Shown here one piece after another: positions 45,050 through 58,510 of a DNA stretch of 64,000 nt; position 1 is the stretch's first letter; every line of letters starts with the position of its first letter. Source of the DNA: Intestinibaculum porci (GTDB taxonomy: Bacteria > Bacillota_I > Bacilli_A > Erysipelotrichales > Coprobacillaceae); the NCBI RefSeq assembly GCF_003925875.1, contig NZ_AP019309.1, positions 1,426,001 to 1,490,000 on the forward strand, written 5' to 3'. The notes under the pieces were generated by a model. The model was not told the origin of the DNA and ran no database searches. It saw only the letters and a program-made list of their open reading frames with translations. The position numbers and the translations under genes are program-made.

Positions 45050-46578
<1,529 letters not shown>

Positions 46579-46840
46579 AGGGAGAAATGAGTGTTTCTTT
46601 TCGGTTTTCTCTGCTTTGCAGAGAAGGAAGACCCTTGAAAACCGCATACAATCAAAAGCAAAGAGAAGACTTATTAATTCAAATTAGTAAGACTTCCTGC
46701 AAACACTATATAAGGATAAGATCAGAGAAACATCAAAGGTCTAGAATCTGGTATAGTGGGCAAAAGCTAAGATAAACAAGAGAAACAGTTAGATCAAGAA
46801 TAACAGTCAGTAAACTCAAGCTTATTCATATCAACTTTCA
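46579..46840 (+). other. 16S-23S spacer without tRNA genes
   Basis: The 262-base spacer is AT-rich and contains a ttctctgc/gcagagaa hairpin just after 16S (processing stem candidate). No tRNA cloverleaf (no GTTCRANNC arm) was found, so tRNA-Ile and tRNA-Ala are absent from this operon. Confidence 0.7.
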
Positions 46841-49727
<2,887 letters not shown>

Positions 49728-49766
49728 AGAAGAGATTGTGTGCGGTTTTCAGGGGAGATCCTGAGA

Positions 49767-49874
49767 TCCGGTAGCGATGGCGTGATGGAGACACCCGTAC
49801 CCATGCCGAACACGGAAGTTAAGCATCACAGCGTCGACGATAGTCAGCAATGGCGACAATAGAACGCTGCCGGT
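49767..49874 (+). rRNA. rrf: 5S ribosomal RNA
   Basis: The terminal helix ccggtagc/gctgccgg encloses the conserved CCCATGCCGAACACGGAAGTTAAG. It lies about 40 bases after 23S. Ends approximate. Confidence 0.93.
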
Positions 49875-49877
49875 CAG

Positions 49878-49901: not shown

Positions 49902-49924
49902 GTTTTGGGAAATTGGAGGCGTTT

Positions 49925-50779
49925 ATGGATAAATATTATCGCTTAGAGCAGGCGCATGAACAAAAATGTGAGACAGATTTTTTAGATCTGTTAGACGAGC
50001 TTGAAGTTAAGGATCTTTTGGCGATTTTAGCGGCTGCTGATATTCATTTAACTGTAGAAAAACTCCAGGTGATGTATGAAAAAAAGTATGACAGCAATCT
50101 TCTGATTAAATATCTTCAGAATATATATGAAGATAAAAAAGAGCTGCTGTGTCAGATCAATACGGTGCTTGAAGACGAAATTTTTTCTTTTCTCATCAAT
50201 CGGATGATTCAGACTTATTATGATCCTGTAGAATTACCCGATCCGCTGCAGCTGCTTATCTTTATGGATGATGTGTCTTCCTACGATCAGGACTGCTTGC
50301 TAGCAGATATCATCCAATGGTTAAAAAGCGTTGATGGCATCAAAGTCTATAATGACTGCTCAGATCTGGATGATATTTTCTGGGAAGTGGATGATCTTGA
50401 GCCGATGGATCTGCTGCTGGAGTGGCTGGATCCTTATGATTTAGCGGATCATGAATTACCTCTGGTCTGGGATTTTTTTACTGCCGTGGTACAGTTATGT
50501 CATGATTTTAATTTTTCAAAACAAGACGAACTGATGGATCTGGCGGCGCTGATGATTTTTTTATACGATCCTGATTATCAGAAAAAAGTATTAGATCAGC
50601 TCGCTCATGAAAGCTTCCAAAGTCTCAAACCTTATATTCATCTCGTCAATATGATGTATCGGCACGGGAAAATGGCAGAAAGCAAAAAACTGGCCTTAGC
50701 CATTAAGCAACTTAAGGCAGATGATCTGGTAGCGCAATTTGATATTCCAGAACTGCTTGCAATCTTTAAAAGTGCTTAG
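49925..50779 (+). CDS. Acidic helical protein of unknown function, behind the rRNA operon
   Basis: The 284-residue product is strongly acidic and predicted almost wholly helical, rich in Leu, Asp and aromatic residues (for example DLDDIFWEVDDLEPMDLLLEWLDPYDL). It has no signal peptide or membrane helix and I recognise no domain; repeated DLL/LLDE patterns suggest a helical-repeat or coiled scaffold. ATG 49925 has TTGGAGG 5 bases upstream. No promoter is evident between the rRNA terminator and the gene, so it may depend on readthrough from the rRNA operon, giving growth-rate-linked expression (inferred). It ends in its own terminator. Confidence 0.7.
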   Translation: MDKYYRLEQAHEQKCETDFLDLLDELEVKDLLAILAAADIHLTVEKLQVMYEKKYDSNLLIKYLQNIYEDKKELLCQINTVLEDEIFSFLINRMIQTYYDPVELPDPLQLLIFMDDVSSYDQDCLLADIIQWLKSVDGIKVYNDCSDLDDIFWEVDDLEPMDLLLEWLDPYDLADHELPLVWDFFTAVVQLCHDFNFSKQDELMDLAALMIFLYDPDYQKKVLDQLAHESFQSLKPYIHLVNMMYRHGKMAESKKLALAIKQLKADDLVAQFDIPELLAIFKSA

Positions 50780-50826: not shown

Positions 50827-50864
50827 CGTTAGAATAAAACGTAGTTTTGCAAAGGAGGCTGCTT

Positions 50865-52847
50865 ATGAAAATCGCGATCTTTACCGATACCTTTTTACCG
50901 GATATTAATGGCGTGGCTACCTCGGTTAGTATCTTACGTGAAGAACTGATTGCCCATGGCCATGATGTGATGATTGTAACGACAGTCCTGCCGAAGGATA
51001 GTGATTATGTAGACCGGATTCCGGTGATCCGGATTAACGGCTTAGATCTTAAACATTTGTATGGCTACCGCATGGCGCCGATTTACAGCTCTCATGCGAT
51101 GAAAGACATTACCGCTTTTGCACCGGATGTTATTCATGTTCAGACGGAATTTGGCATTGGCGTCTTTGCCCGGATTGTCGGCCGGCATTTACATGTCCCC
51201 GTTGTTTATACGTATCATACGATGTGGGAAGACTATTCGCATTATCTAAGCGGCGGCGTCAAGCCGTTAGATTTTGTGGCGCGACGCTTTATCAAACGCT
51301 TATCGCATATGTATGGCGGTCATTGTCAGGAGCTGATTGTTCCTTCTGATAAAGCGGCGGCGCGCCTGTATTCTTATGGTATTGATAAACATATTAACGT
51401 GGTTGAGACTGGCTTACGCCTAGGACGTTTCCAAAAGACGTCGGCCCTTGAAAAGAGTGTTCAAGCGATTAAGACGCAGTATCATTTACAAGGAAAATTT
51501 GTCATTCTCTTTTTAGGGCGGATCGCTCAGGAAAAAAGTATTGATTTTCTGATTCGGGCGATGAAGAAGATTATGCCGATTCGCCGTAATGCTGTTTTAA
51601 TGATTGTTGGCGGCGGCCCTGATGAAAGAGCCTTGCAGGATTTAACGCACGAATTAGGTTTAGAAGCGGATGTTATTTTTACCGGAGCGAAAGAAAGCGC
51701 CGATGTGCCGGCTTATTATCAGGCGGCGGATGTTTTTGTCAGCGCTAGTATGACGGAAACCCAGGGTCTCACTTATATTGAAGCGATGGCTTCTGGCTTA
51801 CCGGTTTTTGCCCGCTATGATGATAATTTGAAAGATGTCATTAAAGATGGTGTGAATGGCTTTTTCTTTCACGATGAAAATGAATATGTGGCCAAATTGA
51901 TGAAGTTAGACAACATTCAAAAAGAGCGGATTGCCAAGCAGGCGATGGCTGATGCGAAGGCGCATTCCAGCACGATCTTTTATGAAAAAATTATTGAGGT
52001 GTATAAGAAAGCTTTGAATGATATGCAGGAACATTATAAAATACAAAATATTGAGAAACAGAAAGATCAGAGTTATCTGCTCACGATCGTGGCCCAAAAG
52101 CATAAAGAAAAGCTGCGCGTTTCGCCCCGTCTGATTGGCGCTTATGGGCTGTTAAGCGGGATGTTCATTGATGAGGAAACGTATCAGGCTTTAAAGGCTG
52201 ACAGTCAGCTGCATGAGGTTTATCAGGCGGCGTTAAAACTGCTGATGTATCGTGATTATGCCCAAGGGGCGCTGCTTAAGCGTTTGATTGACAAAGGCTA
52301 TGAGGAAGAGACAGCCAGCAAAGTGGTGCACTTATTAGCGGAAAAGGGTCTCATTGATGACTATAATTACGCGCACGAGGTGATTGCGAAAACGCTCCGT
52401 CATCAAGGTGGCTTTGAAAAAGCGCGGAGGACCTTAAAAAAAGAAGGCGTAGAGGCGCAGACAATTGAGGATGCACTGAGTGAATTTGATCAACAAGAGG
52501 CTTTAAACGGGGCGAAAGCCTATGCGATGAAGTTAGTGCATCAAAATCGTCATCGCTCGCAGAAGGCCTTAGAGATGAATATCAGGCAAAAACTGCACAG
52601 TCACGGTTACAGCAATGATATTATTGAAGAAGTGATGGCAACATCCGATTTTTCGATGGATGAAGCGCGTTCTGATGCCTTACTTGATCAGGCTTTTGAC
52701 AAAGCGTATCAAAGGTTAAGCCGGAAATATAACGGTCAGGAATTAACGTATAAATTAAAGCATGTTTTGATTCAAAAAGGTTTCACTTATGAAGCCATTA
52801 ACAATAAATTAGAAGAAAGAGGAAGTGAGCTGGATGGAGAAGATTAA
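50865..52847 (+). CDS. GT4 glycosyltransferase fused to a RecX-like domain
   Basis: The 660-residue protein has two unrelated parts. Residues 1-385 are a GT-B fold, family GT4 enzyme: DTFLPDINGVATSV, HVQTEFGIGVFARIVGR, YHTMWEDY, FLGRIAQEKSIDFLIRAM, GGGPDERALQ and SASMTETQGLTYIEAMASGLPV. This resembles glucosyl-diacylglycerol synthases that make membrane glycolipids. Residues ~455-650 are RecX-like three-helix repeats: LLMYRDYAQGALLKRLIDKGYEEETASKVVHLLAEKGLIDDYNYA, then RTLKKEGVEAQTIEDAL and a further set. RecX normally inhibits RecA. AAAGGAGG precedes ATG 50865; the longer start at 50847 lacks a site. Its end overlaps the yhaM gene by 14 bases, so both are co-translated. Confidence 0.87.
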   Translation: MKIAIFTDTFLPDINGVATSVSILREELIAHGHDVMIVTTVLPKDSDYVDRIPVIRINGLDLKHLYGYRMAPIYSSHAMKDITAFAPDVIHVQTEFGIGVFARIVGRHLHVPVVYTYHTMWEDYSHYLSGGVKPLDFVARRFIKRLSHMYGGHCQELIVPSDKAAARLYSYGIDKHINVVETGLRLGRFQKTSALEKSVQAIKTQYHLQGKFVILFLGRIAQEKSIDFLIRAMKKIMPIRRNAVLMIVGGGPDERALQDLTHELGLEADVIFTGAKESADVPAYYQAADVFVSASMTETQGLTYIEAMASGLPVFARYDDNLKDVIKDGVNGFFFHDENEYVAKLMKLDNIQKERIAKQAMADAKAHSSTIFYEKIIEVYKKALNDMQEHYKIQNIEKQKDQSYLLTIVAQKHKEKLRVSPRLIGAYGLLSGMFIDEETYQALKADSQLHEVYQAALKLLMYRDYAQGALLKRLIDKGYEEETASKVVHLLAEKGLIDDYNYAHEVIAKTLRHQGGFEKARRTLKKEGVEAQTIEDALSEFDQQEALNGAKAYAMKLVHQNRHRSQKALEMNIRQKLHSHGYSNDIIEEVMATSDFSMDEARSDALLDQAFDKAYQRLSRKYNGQELTYKLKHVLIQKGFTYEAINNKLEERGSELDGED

Positions 52848-53775
52848 AGAAATGAAGCCCGATATGAGCGTGACATTTGAAGCGATCATATCGCAGGTAT
52901 CAATTGGCAAGACCAACGGTAAAAATAAACGGAACTATCTTAATTTGATTTTAGAAGATCAGAGCGGAGAGATCGATGCCAAATGGTGGAGCCCGACTGA
53001 TCATGACTGTCAGGTCTGCGTGCAGGGAGCCGTTGTCAAAGGTAGCGGGGATGTCATTAGTTATAATGACAGCATTCAGATGAAAGTAGCGAAATTAGAA
53101 GTATTAGAGGTGACTGACGAAGAGAGAATGAAGTTTTTGCCTTCCGCACCGCTTGATGTTGAAGTGATGATGAAGGAAATCAATGATACGATTTCCAATA
53201 TGCAAAGTAAAGCCTTACGGGATATTACCCGGTCACTCATTCATGATCACCGCGCCTCTTTTATGAGTTATCCCGCGGCGACGCGCAATCATCATGATTT
53301 TATCAATGGATTGCTTTATCATACGTACTGCATGTTAAAAATTGCGAAGGGGATTGCTGATGTCTATGGCAATCTCAATAATGATTTGCTTTTTGCAGGT
53401 GTGATTTTACATGACTTAGGCAAGGTAAAAGAATTATCTGGGGCGATTACGCCGCATTACACGGCGGAAGGCAATCTGCTGGGACATATTTCAATTGGTC
53501 ATACGATGATCAAAGAAAAAGCGGATCAGTTAGGCTATCATGGTGAAGAGGTGGTCTTATTAGAACATTTAGTATTAGCCCATCATGGGAAAAATGAGTT
53601 TGGCTCACCGGTGCTGCCGCAGGTGAAAGAAGCGGAAATTTTGTACTTGGTGGACAATATCGATGCCCGCATGGCGATGTTTGATAAGGCTTATGAAGGC
53701 TTAGCGCCAGGTGAAACGAGCAAGCGTATTTTTGCGTTAGAGAACCGGACCTTGTACCGTCCAGAATCTCAATAA
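52834..53775 (+). CDS. yhaM: YhaM-type 3'-5' exoribonuclease
   Basis: The 313-residue protein has an N-terminal OB fold (residues 10-95, YLNLILEDQSGEIDAKWW) and an HD domain: NHHDFINGLLYHTYCMLKIAKG, GVILHDLGKVKEL, GHISIGHTMI and HHGKNEFGSPVLPQVKEAEILYLVDNIDARM. This order defines YhaM/CbF1, a Mn-dependent exonuclease acting in RNA turnover and, in some species, DNA replication. ATG 52834 is used, with GAGGAAG upstream inside the preceding gene. It overlaps the glycosyltransferase-RecX gene. Confidence 0.92.
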   Translation: MEKIKEMKPDMSVTFEAIISQVSIGKTNGKNKRNYLNLILEDQSGEIDAKWWSPTDHDCQVCVQGAVVKGSGDVISYNDSIQMKVAKLEVLEVTDEERMKFLPSAPLDVEVMMKEINDTISNMQSKALRDITRSLIHDHRASFMSYPAATRNHHDFINGLLYHTYCMLKIAKGIADVYGNLNNDLLFAGVILHDLGKVKELSGAITPHYTAEGNLLGHISIGHTMIKEKADQLGYHGEEVVLLEHLVLAHHGKNEFGSPVLPQVKEAEILYLVDNIDARMAMFDKAYEGLAPGETSKRIFALENRTLYRPESQ

Positions 53776-53861: not shown

Positions 53862-54320
53862 ATGGATAAAGTTAAAAAATGGTTCTTCGAAGAAGAAGAT
53901 GACGATGAAGAATTCGATGGTTTAGAGGAAGATACTCAGGAAGAAGCACCGGAAGAAGAGGCGCCGGCAGCTCCTGAAGCCCCTAAAGCTAATATTTTTG
54001 AAAAAGCAAAATCAAATCGTACAACGGAAGTTGTCAATAAATTAAATGCGAATAAGAATAATGAACTGGTTTTATTTGAACCAAGAAGCTATTCTGAAAC
54101 TCAGGACATTGCGGCTTATTTAAAAGCAGGCAAAGCAGCGGTAGTCAATTTACATCGCTTACAGAAAGAACAGTCAAAACGTGTTATTGACTTCTTAAGC
54201 GGGGTTATTTATGCCATTGATGGTGATATCCAGCAGATTGGTCCGAAAATTTTCTTATGCACACCTAAGGGGATTGGGGTCAGTGGTAATATCTCTTTAG
54301 ATGATGAAGAAAGTAAATAA
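53862..54320 (+). CDS. sepF: Cell division protein SepF
   Basis: SepF binds FtsZ and the membrane and shapes the septal ring in Gram-positives. The 152-residue product has the membrane-targeting start MDKVKKWFF, an acidic Glu/Ala/Pro-rich linker (residues 10-45), and the SepF core (LVLFEPRSYSETQDIAAYLKAGKAAVVNLHRLQKEQSKRVIDFLSGVIYAIDGDIQQIGPKIFLCTP). It precedes ylmH and divIVA as in the dcw-distal cluster of Bacillus; ylmG is missing. Confidence 0.95.
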   Translation: MDKVKKWFFEEEDDDEEFDGLEEDTQEEAPEEEAPAAPEAPKANIFEKAKSNRTTEVVNKLNANKNNELVLFEPRSYSETQDIAAYLKAGKAAVVNLHRLQKEQSKRVIDFLSGVIYAIDGDIQQIGPKIFLCTPKGIGVSGNISLDDEESK

Positions 54321-54349
54321 GTATGAGCATCTTTGTTCATACTTTTTTA
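54319..54349 (+). terminator. Hairpin between sepF and ylmH
   Basis: aagtatga/tcatactt stem followed by T6. It lies only about 10 bases before the ylmH start, so it likely gives partial termination that lowers ylmH-divIVA expression. Confidence 0.65.
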
Positions 54350-54357
54350 GGTGATTT

Positions 54358-55101
54358 ATGCTAGAACATTTTAAAGGTGAAGAGGCGTTCGTAAGAAAAA
54401 TACTCGATTATCAAAACCAAGCAGAAAATGGCAAGATGGTTTTAACGAAGTTTTTAGATCCTCATAAACGGGAAATTATTCATGATGTCATCGGACAGCG
54501 GGCGGCGATTTATGAAGAGGGCGGTTTTGTCGGCGCGGAGAATAAGCGCGTCATCATCTGCCCGGATTATTATGAGATTGTCCCAGAAGATTTTAAGATT
54601 CATGTTTATGAAGTGGGATATAGTGAAAAGTTTGATCATTTAGCCCATAAAGATGTTTTAGGGGCGCTGATGCATTTAGGAATTGAGCGGGCATGCATCG
54701 GCGATATCTGCAAGCAGCCATTGGCTTTTGCAATCACTGCCGAGAATAGCGATTATGTCGTAATGGCACTCAAAAAGATCAAACGTTCGAGTATTCGTTT
54801 AATTCCTCATGATTTCTCATTAACAATCGTCAATGATTTTAAGAAAAAGGAATTTGTGGCCACGAGTCTGCGTTTAGATAAACTCATTAGCGTGATGTTT
54901 GGCTTATCGCGCGCGAAAGCGATGGACGCTATTCACATGGGCAGTGTGAAAGTCAATCATAAAGTTATTGAACAAACGGACTATTTGTGCAATAATAATG
55001 ACATAATCTCGTTTAGACGACATGGACGAGTGAAATTACAGGTGACCGCGCGAACGACAAAAGCCGGTAACTATATAGTGGAAGGATTATTTTACTTGTG
55101 A
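54358..55101 (+). CDS. ylmH: YlmH-type S4-domain RNA-binding protein
   Basis: The 247-residue protein matches YlmH, linked with cell division and more recently with ribosome rescue. An N-terminal alpha/beta region has FLDPHKREIIHDVIGQ and GAENKRVIICPDYY. The DVLGALMHLGIERACIGDI block follows, and the C-terminal S4 domain (residues ~178-240) is LRLDKLISVMFGLSRAKAMDAIHMGSVKVNHKVIEQTDYLCNNNDIISFRRHGR. TAGGTGA is the ribosome site. It is followed within about 10 bases by divIVA. Confidence 0.92.
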   Translation: MLEHFKGEEAFVRKILDYQNQAENGKMVLTKFLDPHKREIIHDVIGQRAAIYEEGGFVGAENKRVIICPDYYEIVPEDFKIHVYEVGYSEKFDHLAHKDVLGALMHLGIERACIGDICKQPLAFAITAENSDYVVMALKKIKRSSIRLIPHDFSLTIVNDFKKKEFVATSLRLDKLISVMFGLSRAKAMDAIHMGSVKVNHKVIEQTDYLCNNNDIISFRRHGRVKLQVTARTTKAGNYIVEGLFYL

Positions 55102-55111
55102 GGTGAGAAGA

Positions 55112-55573
55112 GTGGCGGAAAATTTTACAAAAACGTTTCGTGGCTACAGTATTGAAGAAGTCGATGAGACGATTGAAGATTTAGAGTCGCAGATTGACCA
55201 GCAGAAAGCGGAAATTGAGTCTTTGAAAGAAGAGCTCCATAACGTCAAAGAAGAAAATGCGATCATGGCGAATCGTTCGACAATCACGGAGAAAGCCAAT
55301 GAAGAGATTGCCCGTTTGGCCTTGAAAGAAGCAAGTGATTTAATTACGAAAGCGAAACGCAACGCGAATCTGATTCTGAAAGAATCGATGGAATATGTTC
55401 GCGGCTTAGATAAAGAAGTGAACGGCTTCAAAGATGATGCGAAAACTTTCCGAGCGGAAGTTGTTTCTTTAAGCAAAGAATTAATAGAAACTATTGACAA
55501 ATCTGAAATTTTCGCTTTAATTAATGAAGATGAAAATACGAAGAAAGAGACCGGTCATTCCGATCACTTATAG
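55112..55573 (+). CDS. divIVA: DivIVA-family septum/pole protein
   Basis: The 153-residue protein begins with the DivIVA N-terminal domain (NFTKTFRGYSIEEVDETIEDLESQI). A long coiled coil follows (QQKAEIESLKEELHNVKEENAIM, later KEASDLITKAKRNANLILKESMEYVRGLDKEV). It would recognise curved membrane at septa and poles and recruit partners. GTG 55112 is preferred over GTG 55103 because AGGTGA lies before it and the product then begins at the conserved region. Its 3' end abuts the ileS T-box leader. Confidence 0.88.
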   Translation: MAENFTKTFRGYSIEEVDETIEDLESQIDQQKAEIESLKEELHNVKEENAIMANRSTITEKANEEIARLALKEASDLITKAKRNANLILKESMEYVRGLDKEVNGFKDDAKTFRAEVVSLSKELIETIDKSEIFALINEDENTKKETGHSDHL

Positions 55574-55750
55574 AGAAACTGTGGTTGGTGGAAACAGTGA
55601 AGTGAGGAGTCTGACGAATCAGCTCTGGAGTAGCCTCCTGAATAGTTAGGGAGCGCCGTTAGCTGCGTTAAAGCTTGAGCGCACATCGAAAGATGTGAAT
55701 AAAGGTGGTACCGCGTGCTAGACGTCCTTTAATGGATGTCTTTTTTTATT
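55561..55750 (+). promoter_or_regulatory. T-box riboswitch for ileS, specifier ATC
   Basis: Stem I features TGGTTGGTGGAAACAG are followed by GAATCAGCTCTGGAGTAG, in which ATC (55618-55620) is the isoleucine specifier codon. The T-box AAAGGTGGTACCGCG (55700-55714) offers TGGT to pair with the ACCA end of uncharged tRNA-Ile. The terminator agacgtcc/ggatgtct with T7 (55720-55748) follows. The base of stem I must reach back to or into the divIVA stop region. No separate promoter is visible between divIVA and the leader. Confidence 0.9.
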
Positions 55751-55768
55751 TGAGAAAGGGAGAGAACA

Positions 55769-58510
55769 ATGGACTATAAAAGCACATTATTAATGCCAAA
55801 AACTGATTTTGAAATGCGTGGCAAACTTCCTACGAAGGAACCAAAGTATGTTCAAAGATGGCAGGATGACAACATGTATGAACGTGTTGTAAAACAAAAT
55901 GAAGGCAAGAAAGAATTTGTCTTCCATGATGGCCCTCCATATGCCAATGGACATATGCATATGGGGCATATGATGAATAAAATCATCAAAGATATCATTT
56001 GTCGTTATAAAAATATGGAAGGTTTCCATACACCATATATTCCAGGATGGGATACGCATGGTTTACCAATTGAAAATGCGATTCAGAAACTTGGGGTGGA
56101 TCGTAAATCGATGTCTACCGCTGCCTTTAGAGAAAAATGTTACGAATATGCGTTAAAACAGGTCGCTGGGCAGATGGAACAGTGTATCCGGGTAGGGACA
56201 TTCGCTGATTATAAGCATCCTTATTTAACTTTACATAAAGAATTTGAAGCGCGTCAGATCGAAGTTTTCGGTAAGATGGCTTTAGATGGTTTAATCTTCA
56301 AGGGATTAAAACCAGTTTACTGGTCACCTTCATCAGAATCAGCTTTAGCGGAAGCGGAAGTAGAATATCATGATGTCAAGGCGCCAACAATTTATGTACG
56401 TTTTAAAGTGAAAGATGGGAAAGGCCTTTTAAATGAAGACAATACATACTTTGTCATCTGGACAACTACCCCTTGGACCATTCCAGCTGATCAGGCGATC
56501 TGTTTAAATCCAAATTATACCTATGCTGTTGTCAAGAGTGAAAAAGGCAACTTAATTGTCTTAGAAGAATTAGTGGATCAGTTATGGGAAATCTTCGGCT
56601 TAAAAGAAAAAGAAATTATCCAGCGTTTCACTGGTAAAGAAGCTGAATACATCACATGTACGCATCCGCTTTATCCAGATCGTGAATCATTAGTCATCTG
56701 CGGTGATCATGTCACGACTGAATCAGGGACTGGCTGTGTCCATACGGCCAGCGGCTTTGGTGAAGACGACTTTAATATCTGTAAAGCTTATAACATTCCT
56801 GTTTATGTCAATGTCGATGAACATGGGCGTATGATGGATGACTGCGGCGAATGGTTAGCCGGTCAGTATGTTGATGATGCCAATAAGACTGTTACCAACC
56901 GACTTGATGAACAGGGTGACTTATTAAACTTAACATGGATCACCCATAGCTATCCTCATGACTGGCGTACAAAGAAACCAATTATCTTCCGTGCGACCGA
57001 TCAGTGGTTCTGTTCAATCGATAAGATTAGAGATAAATTATTAGATGAAATTGATCATAAAGTACACTGGATCAATGAATGGGGTCAGATCCGTATTCAT
57101 AACATGATCCGTGACCGTGGCGACTGGTGTATTTCCCGTCAGAGAACATGGGGTGTCCCAATCCCAATCTTCTATTGTGAAGATGGTACACCAATCATGG
57201 AAAAAGAAGTCTTCGATCATATTTCTGAATTATTTAGACAGTATGGTTCAAACGTGTGGTTTGAAAGAGATGAAAAAGACTTATTACCAGAAGGGTATAC
57301 GAATGAACATTCACCAAATGGTATCTTCAAGAAAGAAAAAGATATCATGGATGTCTGGTTCGACTCCGGTTCTTCACATACTGGTGTCTTAATCGAACGT
57401 GGTTTAGGTTATCCAGCTGATTTATATTTTGAAGGTTCCGATCAGTATCGTGGCTGGTTCAACTCTTCATTAATCGTCGGCACAGCTGTTCATGGTCAGG
57501 CCCCTTATAAATCAGTCTTATCCCATGGCTTCGTCTTAGATGGTAAAGGCAATAAGATGTCTAAATCATTAGGCAATACCGTTGATCCAATTAAAGTCAT
57601 TAACCAGTATGGGGCTGATATCGTGCGTTTATGGGCCGCTTCTGTGGATTATCAGTCCGATGTCCGTATCTCTAAAGAAATCTTAAAAGGCATTTCTGAT
57701 AACTATCGTAAGATCCGTAATACAATGCGTTTCTTACTTGGTAACTTAAATGATTTCAAAGATACTGATATCATGGATCTTAAAGACTTAGAAGAAGTGG
57801 ATTTATTTGTCTTAGCTAAATTAAATGATGTCATGGCAGAATATCATCAGGCGATGGAAACTTATAACTTCGCTGATGCTGTCAAGGCGATCTTAAACTA
57901 TATCACGAACTTATTAAGTGCCTTCTATATGGACTTCACAAAAGATGTTTTATATTGTGATAAGTTCAATACGACAAGAAGACGTCAGATTCAGACAACT
58001 CTTTATTACAATGCGAAAGTCTTAATGAAGGCCATTTCACCAATCTTAGTCTTCACCAGTGAAGAATTACATGATCATTGGTATTGTGATACAAACAAAG
58101 AAGATTCCATCTTCTTAGAAAAAGAATTACCAGCTTTTGATATTGAAAATGCGGATGCGATCAAAGCAAAATTTGATAACTTCATGGCTTTAAGAAATGA
58201 TGTCATGAGAGCCTTAGAAGCGTTAAGAAATGATAAAGTGATCGGTTCAAATATGGAAGCGGCTGTCACGATTTCATTAAAAGATGACTACAAAGACTTA
58301 TCGGCTTTAAAAGCTATGATGAAAACATTCTTCATCGTCGCAAAAGTTGACTTAAGTGTTGATCATGAAGGTTTTGATGAATATGATACAGCTTATGTCA
58401 AAGCCGAAAAATTCGGTGGTGTTCAGTGTCCACGTTGTCGTAACTACTTCAGCGAAGAAGAATTAAACGCTGATGGTTTATGCCCACGCTGCGCTGATGC
58501 AGTCAAATAA
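55769..58510 (+). CDS. ileS: Isoleucyl-tRNA synthetase
   Basis: The 913-residue class I synthetase has PYANGHMHMGH (HIGH motif), the editing domain region with TTTPWTIPADQAI, and KMSKS (596-600 in GNKMSKSLGN). A zinc-binding C-terminus CPRCRNYF...CPRCAD completes the bacterial (mupirocin-sensitive-like) form. It charges tRNA-Ile and removes misactivated valine. The T-box immediately upstream responds to uncharged tRNA-Ile. Strong AAAGGGAGAG ribosome site. Confidence 0.97.
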   Translation: MDYKSTLLMPKTDFEMRGKLPTKEPKYVQRWQDDNMYERVVKQNEGKKEFVFHDGPPYANGHMHMGHMMNKIIKDIICRYKNMEGFHTPYIPGWDTHGLPIENAIQKLGVDRKSMSTAAFREKCYEYALKQVAGQMEQCIRVGTFADYKHPYLTLHKEFEARQIEVFGKMALDGLIFKGLKPVYWSPSSESALAEAEVEYHDVKAPTIYVRFKVKDGKGLLNEDNTYFVIWTTTPWTIPADQAICLNPNYTYAVVKSEKGNLIVLEELVDQLWEIFGLKEKEIIQRFTGKEAEYITCTHPLYPDRESLVICGDHVTTESGTGCVHTASGFGEDDFNICKAYNIPVYVNVDEHGRMMDDCGEWLAGQYVDDANKTVTNRLDEQGDLLNLTWITHSYPHDWRTKKPIIFRATDQWFCSIDKIRDKLLDEIDHKVHWINEWGQIRIHNMIRDRGDWCISRQRTWGVPIPIFYCEDGTPIMEKEVFDHISELFRQYGSNVWFERDEKDLLPEGYTNEHSPNGIFKKEKDIMDVWFDSGSSHTGVLIERGLGYPADLYFEGSDQYRGWFNSSLIVGTAVHGQAPYKSVLSHGFVLDGKGNKMSKSLGNTVDPIKVINQYGADIVRLWAASVDYQSDVRISKEILKGISDNYRKIRNTMRFLLGNLNDFKDTDIMDLKDLEEVDLFVLAKLNDVMAEYHQAMETYNFADAVKAILNYITNLLSAFYMDFTKDVLYCDKFNTTRRRQIQTTLYYNAKVLMKAISPILVFTSEELHDHWYCDTNKEDSIFLEKELPAFDIENADAIKAKFDNFMALRNDVMRALEALRNDKVIGSNMEAAVTISLKDDYKDLSALKAMMKTFFIVAKVDLSVDHEGFDEYDTAYVKAEKFGGVQCPRCRNYFSEEELNADGLCPRCADAVK

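Follow-up and report, generated by a model that had tools for sequence, protein, structure and literature searches.

Introduction

RecX controls RecA, a protein of DNA repair. It has to reach RecA filaments on DNA; enzymes of the alpha-monoglucosyldiacylglycerol synthase (MGS) type sit on the membrane. In Bacillus subtilis, RecX gathers in foci on the nucleoid and is found together with RecA threads (PMC3527212). The enzyme alMGS binds the membrane as a monotopic protein (PMC6506492), and in Escherichia coli the anionic phospholipids of the inner membrane associate with RecA bundles and storage structures (PMC6363387).

Here we describe a gene of Intestinibaculum porci whose product carries an MGS-like glycosyltransferase (GT) and a RecX-family protein on one chain. 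The window analyzed is a 64,000-nucleotide stretch of contig NZ_AP019309.1, and the coordinates of Table 1 refer to it. No paper describing a GT-RecX fusion was found in the literature; the architecture may already be visible, undiscussed, in the domain-architecture lists of InterPro or NCBI. Both domain families are well known, and as far as the literature searched shows, it is their combination that is new.

Results

An MGS-like glycosyltransferase and a RecX-family protein share one reading frame

Translation of the window reveals a single uninterrupted open reading frame (ORF) of 660 amino acids on the plus strand, at 50865-52847. An earlier note, made from the sequence of this DNA, had proposed that a GT4 glycosyltransferase and RecX are joined here in one frame. 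This proposal holds: 660 codons run without a stop, and both Pfam and NCBIfam models match both parts. The in-frame TTG at 50847 is the mechanical choice of the ORF finder and is made unneeded by the ATG at 50865, which follows the AAGGAGG at a spacing of 6 bases.

Table 1. Positions of the features of the fusion locus within the window.
Feature	Coordinates	Strand	Basis or location
Complete rRNA operon (16S, 23S, 5S)	45051-49875		Directly upstream
285-aa protein	49922-50779		Flanked by the rRNA operon and the fusion
Ribosome-binding region	50847..50864	+	AAGGAGG ahead of ATG 50865 (sequence read)
GT4 glycosyltransferase half, MGS-like (residues 1-388)	50865..52028	+	Pfam, NCBIfam, EX7E motif, GT-B model
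Two-residue junction (389-390)	52029..52034	+	AlphaFold2 secondary structure; length conservation in relatives
RecX half (residues 391-660), the genome's only RecX	52035..52844	+	NCBIfam, fold search, genome search
yhaM, 3'-5' exoribonuclease (HD + OB domains)	52834..53775	+	NCBIfam YhaM; Pfam HD, OB
T-box leader	55532-55732		Within region 53862-58510

The Pfam GT4 domains Glycos_transf_1 (8.4e-35) and Glyco_transf_4 (1.8e-24) both score above their cut-offs in the fusion protein and span residues 14-355. The catalytic EX7E motif lies at residues 298-306 and is present in all 78 fused rows of the alignment (74 by pattern and 4 variants by eye). AlphaFold2 models the GT half as a GT-B fold, for which a fold search returned MshA/BshA as the top PDB matches. 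Fold, Pfam domains, and motif, the features by which GT4 membership was judged, are thus all present. The best NCBIfam model by far was MGS (NF049988), which matches residues 1-391 with an E value of 5e-76 and a score of 256.6 bits, below the 400 bits required by its equivalog threshold. The glucolipid-type GT4 identity suggested earlier is therefore borne out by both the Pfam domains and the MGS match; we describe the half as MGS-like only, nearest to alpha-monoglucosyldiacylglycerol synthase, and judging by its sequence, it probably makes the first membrane glycolipid. The N-domain of the GT, where an MGS would be expected to have a basic amphipathic helix for membrane binding, is weakly basic (pI 7.9 and net charge +1).

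The C-terminal half has the layout of N-terminal beta strands followed by tandem three-helix repeats. NCBIfam RecX (NF010733) matches residues 391-653 at 3.3e-47, covering model positions 5-264 of 267, with 161.4 bits against an equivalog threshold of 240. RecX_HTH1 (3.7e-13, 49.6 bits) and RecX_HTH3 (2e-06, 28.3 bits) pass the Pfam cut-off of 26. RecX_HTH2 (PF02631), the model named in the earlier note, stays under its cut-off in the fusion protein (6.7e-4, 20.3 bits); RecX identity is carried by HTH1, HTH3, the NCBIfam match, and the fold. The span given for RecX, residues 440-660, also has to be revised, since NCBIfam puts the start near residue 391, ~50 residues earlier. Solved RecX structures were matched by sequence (3d5l at 1.4e-12 and 3e3v at 1.6e-10). 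When modeled alone, the half reached a pLDDT of 91 (AlphaFold2), and its six significant PDB fold matches were all RecX (3d5l, 3e3v, 3dfg, and 3c1d), with TM scores by target of 0.76-0.84. A C-terminal part lacking the RecX fold would have spoken against the earlier identification; the predicted fold matches RecX crystal structures. By sequence and model, the half is a complete RecX-family protein of the long Bacillus type. Because both halves score below the equivalog thresholds, the two parts are named MGS-like GT4 and RecX-family and not certified orthologues.

The fusion is order-wide and contains the only RecX

In the source genome (3.21 Mb, one contig), which carries one RecA, searches with PF02631, PF21982, and an alignment of 17 RecX rows found no second recX. 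The survey was extended to 137 genomes from this order that are at least 95% complete. Exactly one RecX match was found in 132 of them, 121 of which have it in an ORF of 620 amino acids or more. PF02631, used as a second, independent model, gave at most one recX per genome across the order, always in frames already known. The fused full-length ORF spans two families and dozens of genera; named examples whose ORFs were read include Thomasclavelia saccharogumia and Erysipelotrichaceae MTC7 (L002 and L004), which is consistent with the surveyed order being Erysipelotrichales. Two of the checks that had been proposed, a search for a separate recX and a survey of GT4 + RecX architectures among relatives, thus returned no separate gene in the source genome and a fusion that is order-wide.

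These data bear directly on the possibility that a frameshift, a sequencing error, or strain-specific readthrough joins two genes. Such an error would be easy to make where, as in outgroups (see below), the two genes are adjacent and overlapping. However, the same full-length ORF is shared by more than 120 independent genomes, across the two families and dozens of genera, which leaves an artifact with a negligible chance of being correct and leads us to reject a frameshift confined to this strain.

In the wider class outside the order, 63 genomes gave a strong GT match, and none of them has one match covering both halves. Their GT frames are ~380-480 amino acids long, with the exception of three of 650-707 amino acids. 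The latter (L190, L191, and L192, from another family of the class) were considered as a second origin of the fusion and discarded: these long ORFs begin with a hydrolase-like part and lack RecX. By eye, an alpha/beta-hydrolase-like N terminus of ~265 amino acids is joined there to an MGS-like GT. One otherwise fused relative (L127, 1946-3825, plus strand, genome G059) has its GT half in two frames and its RecX half intact, which reflects either gene disruption or an error of sequencing.

The fusion probably arose from adjacent genes of one operon

The usual gene order in relatives is a second GT, a flippase-like membrane protein (PF03706/TIGR00374), GT-RecX, and yhaM, with mostly small overlaps or gaps between the genes. 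The second, upstream GT has its relatives in the glycolipid families IagA/BgsA and Dgs. At the 3' end, the fusion overlaps yhaM, as the earlier note had observed, by 14 bases with the better-placed ATG at 52834 or by 23 bases with the GTG at 52825. The YhaM NCBIfam match (1.1e-105) scores 353 bits, below the strict cut-off of 460, and the HD and OB domains are above their Pfam cut-offs. The overlap had been taken to keep the fusion in a nucleic-acid context. This applies to the downstream side; the upstream partners in most relatives are glycolipid genes. With the flippase and the glycolipid GT upstream, the operon of the relatives combines genes for the synthesis of envelope lipids with nucleic-acid genes.

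In the source genome, the flippase-like gene lies away from the fusion, at 2772455-2773384, and the fusion-yhaM pair is placed between the rRNA operon and a sepF-ylmH-divIVA-ileS cluster. Minus-strand ORFs listed within the rRNA operon are spurious, and the 285-amino acid protein has no significant match to a Pfam family. The genes in 53862-58510, which by sequence recognition we take to be sepF-, ylmH-, and divIVA-like genes and ileS, form a cell-division cluster that the fusion-yhaM pair abuts. A yhaM-sepF adjacency was also seen in L001, L088, L089, L102, and L110.

In outgroup families f8, f10, and f19 and in loci L005, L008, and L009, flippase, GT, recX, and yhaM follow one another as separate overlapping genes. 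The GT and recX frames overlap by 23-92 bases in L193-L200, as counted with unrefined start codons, and similarly in L005, L008, and L009. In neighboring families, GT and recX are thus distinct, though overlapping, members of one operon, so the fusion probably goes back to the joining of two neighboring genes at the root of the order.

To follow its fate, we used a tree of RecX + YhaM obtained by a quick search and rooted on L005/L008/L009. The order falls into two branches. One is fused in all 33 rows; in the other, split loci (L126, L130, and L150) and GT-less loci (L120-L125, L128, and L152) are scattered among fused rows. There are nine changes over three states on this tree, a count that does not by itself prove direction. 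We estimate ~4 GT losses and ~3 splits. In GT-less loci, recX and yhaM stay together. The simplest reading is a fused ancestor of the order: the genes fused once, and several lineages later split them or lost the GT. L154, labeled GT-less on the tree, was not retained as such: a contig end cuts the locus, which is more likely split.

In L128 (1961-3118, minus strand), the RecX ORF has a 114-amino acid N-terminal extension resembling a decayed GT remnant, the alignment to GT being weak (best E about 0.02-0.1). In L151 (1277-3115, minus strand, genome G133), an MGS-like GT carries at its C terminus a membrane domain that by eye looks like DedA/VTT proteins, and recX-yhaM of G133 is located at another site, next to the flippase gene (L152).

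Strong purifying selection acts on both halves

In nine close pairs, the GT half has Ka/Ks values of 0.05-0.15 and the RecX half values of 0.01-0.12; single values are rough because several pairs have high Ks. Purifying selection is thus strong on both halves. Over longer distances, mean identity in 31 relatives is 46% for the RecX half and 60% for the GT half. The lower long-range conservation and the subthreshold PF02631 score in the window protein would fit a RecX half that no longer modulates RecA and now serves the GT solely in a structural or regulatory role. Such a loss of function is improbable: Ka/Ks is equally low in the two halves, RecX is kept alone beside yhaM after GT loss, and it is the sole RecX of a genome that has RecA.

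The junction is short and nearly fixed in length

In the AlphaFold2 model, the junction is flanked by the last GT helix (residues 369-388) and the first RecX strand (391-398). The length of residues 380-396 is constant in 74 of 75 fused relatives and changes in one, while several loops elsewhere in the fusion vary in more than 40 of the 75 rows. This suggests a turn within the fold rather than a loose linker; with a helix and a strand flanking the junction, the evidence is suggestive and no more. The near-fixed length may point to a need for a defined arrangement of the two domains, contrary to pure independence. The full-length model, built from an alignment of the window protein and related proteins, has a mean pLDDT of 89.3 and a moderate pTM of 0.62, so how the halves are oriented to each other is not confidently predicted.

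Separate translation of RecX from an internal start was also considered. A Met lies near the junction in 32 of 78 fused rows. At the junction, 58 of the 78 have no internal start with a Shine-Dalgarno sequence; a Shine-Dalgarno-like site of at least 4 bases together with a start codon occurs in the other 20, and internal initiation is therefore not a conserved feature. The fusion might be cleaved proteolytically into two proteins.

The main rival reading is a functional coupling of the halves, above all by membrane tethering. A monotopic GT could tether RecX to the membrane, or DNA and RecA binding by RecX could regulate glycolipid synthesis, so that RecA activity and lipid state would be linked. 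Order-wide retention of the fusion, the near-invariant junction, the membrane-bound, monotopic nature of the alMGS-type enzyme, and the association of RecA structures with inner-membrane phospholipids in E. coli speak for such coupling. However, the GT losses that kept recX-yhaM, together with the splits, indicate that the link is dispensable in some lineages; in addition, the N-domain of the GT is just weakly basic, the domain orientation is uncertain, and B. subtilis RecX acts on the nucleoid. Coupling is thus possible but unlikely. Its most explicit form, in which the glycolipid synthase would hold the sole RecX at the inner membrane with a fixed geometry between the two, and RecA filament dynamics (or SOS and recombination) would be coupled mechanically or allosterically to lipid synthesis across the order, appears doubtful.

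Discussion

We favor, with a probability of roughly 0.7, a genuine, ancient, and vertically inherited fusion that encodes a bifunctional protein with two largely independent domains. Considering the tree and the unfused outgroups, the stop codon between the overlapping operon genes gt and recX would have been lost at the base of the order. By analogy with its family, the GT half would catalyze the first glycolipid step, glucosylation of diacylglycerol with UDP-glucose, on the inner face of the membrane, and the RecX half would be the cell's sole modulator of RecA filaments. We infer both activities and their independence. The fusion may persist mainly because each domain works by itself even when joined to the other; common expression and a 1:1 ratio of the two may add some benefit. 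Repeated natural splits and GT losses with recX kept indicate that RecX does not need the GT. Of the unexpected pairing of envelope synthesis with DNA repair control to which the earlier note drew attention, the physical fusion therefore stands, but a functional link does not follow, since GT-less lineages keep recX-yhaM.

In this order of gut-dwelling bacteria, a probable first-glycolipid enzyme and the only RecX are on one polypeptide. A sole RecX chained to a membrane-type enzyme poses a sharp question of where RecX acts, and because fused, split, and GT-less relatives exist in nature, a link between RecA control and the membrane is directly testable. The architecture is also a warning for annotation: recX is present in these bacteria but concealed within a gene that would probably be called a glycosyltransferase.

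Three known systems are closest to the fusion. With the GT4 enzyme MGS of A. laidlawii (NF049988), it shares a match across the whole GT half, the GT-B fold, and EX7E, and its relatives have glycolipid-type operon partners; it differs in the additional C-terminal RecX, in its score of 256.6 of 400 bits, and perhaps in the basic membrane-binding surface, which is not evident here (net +1). With B. subtilis YfhG/RecX (264 amino acids, long Firmicute type; NF010733), it shares a full-length sequence match, the fold, and the tandem three-helix repeats. In contrast to YfhG, the fusion carries RecX as the C-terminal half of a glycosyltransferase, scores 161 of 240 bits, and has RecX_HTH2 under the cut-off. 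The third is the flippase-like - GT - recX - yhaM operon of neighboring Bacilli families (L193-L200, L005, L008, and L009), which has the same gene order and protein families, but in which GT and RecX are encoded by separate overlapping genes.
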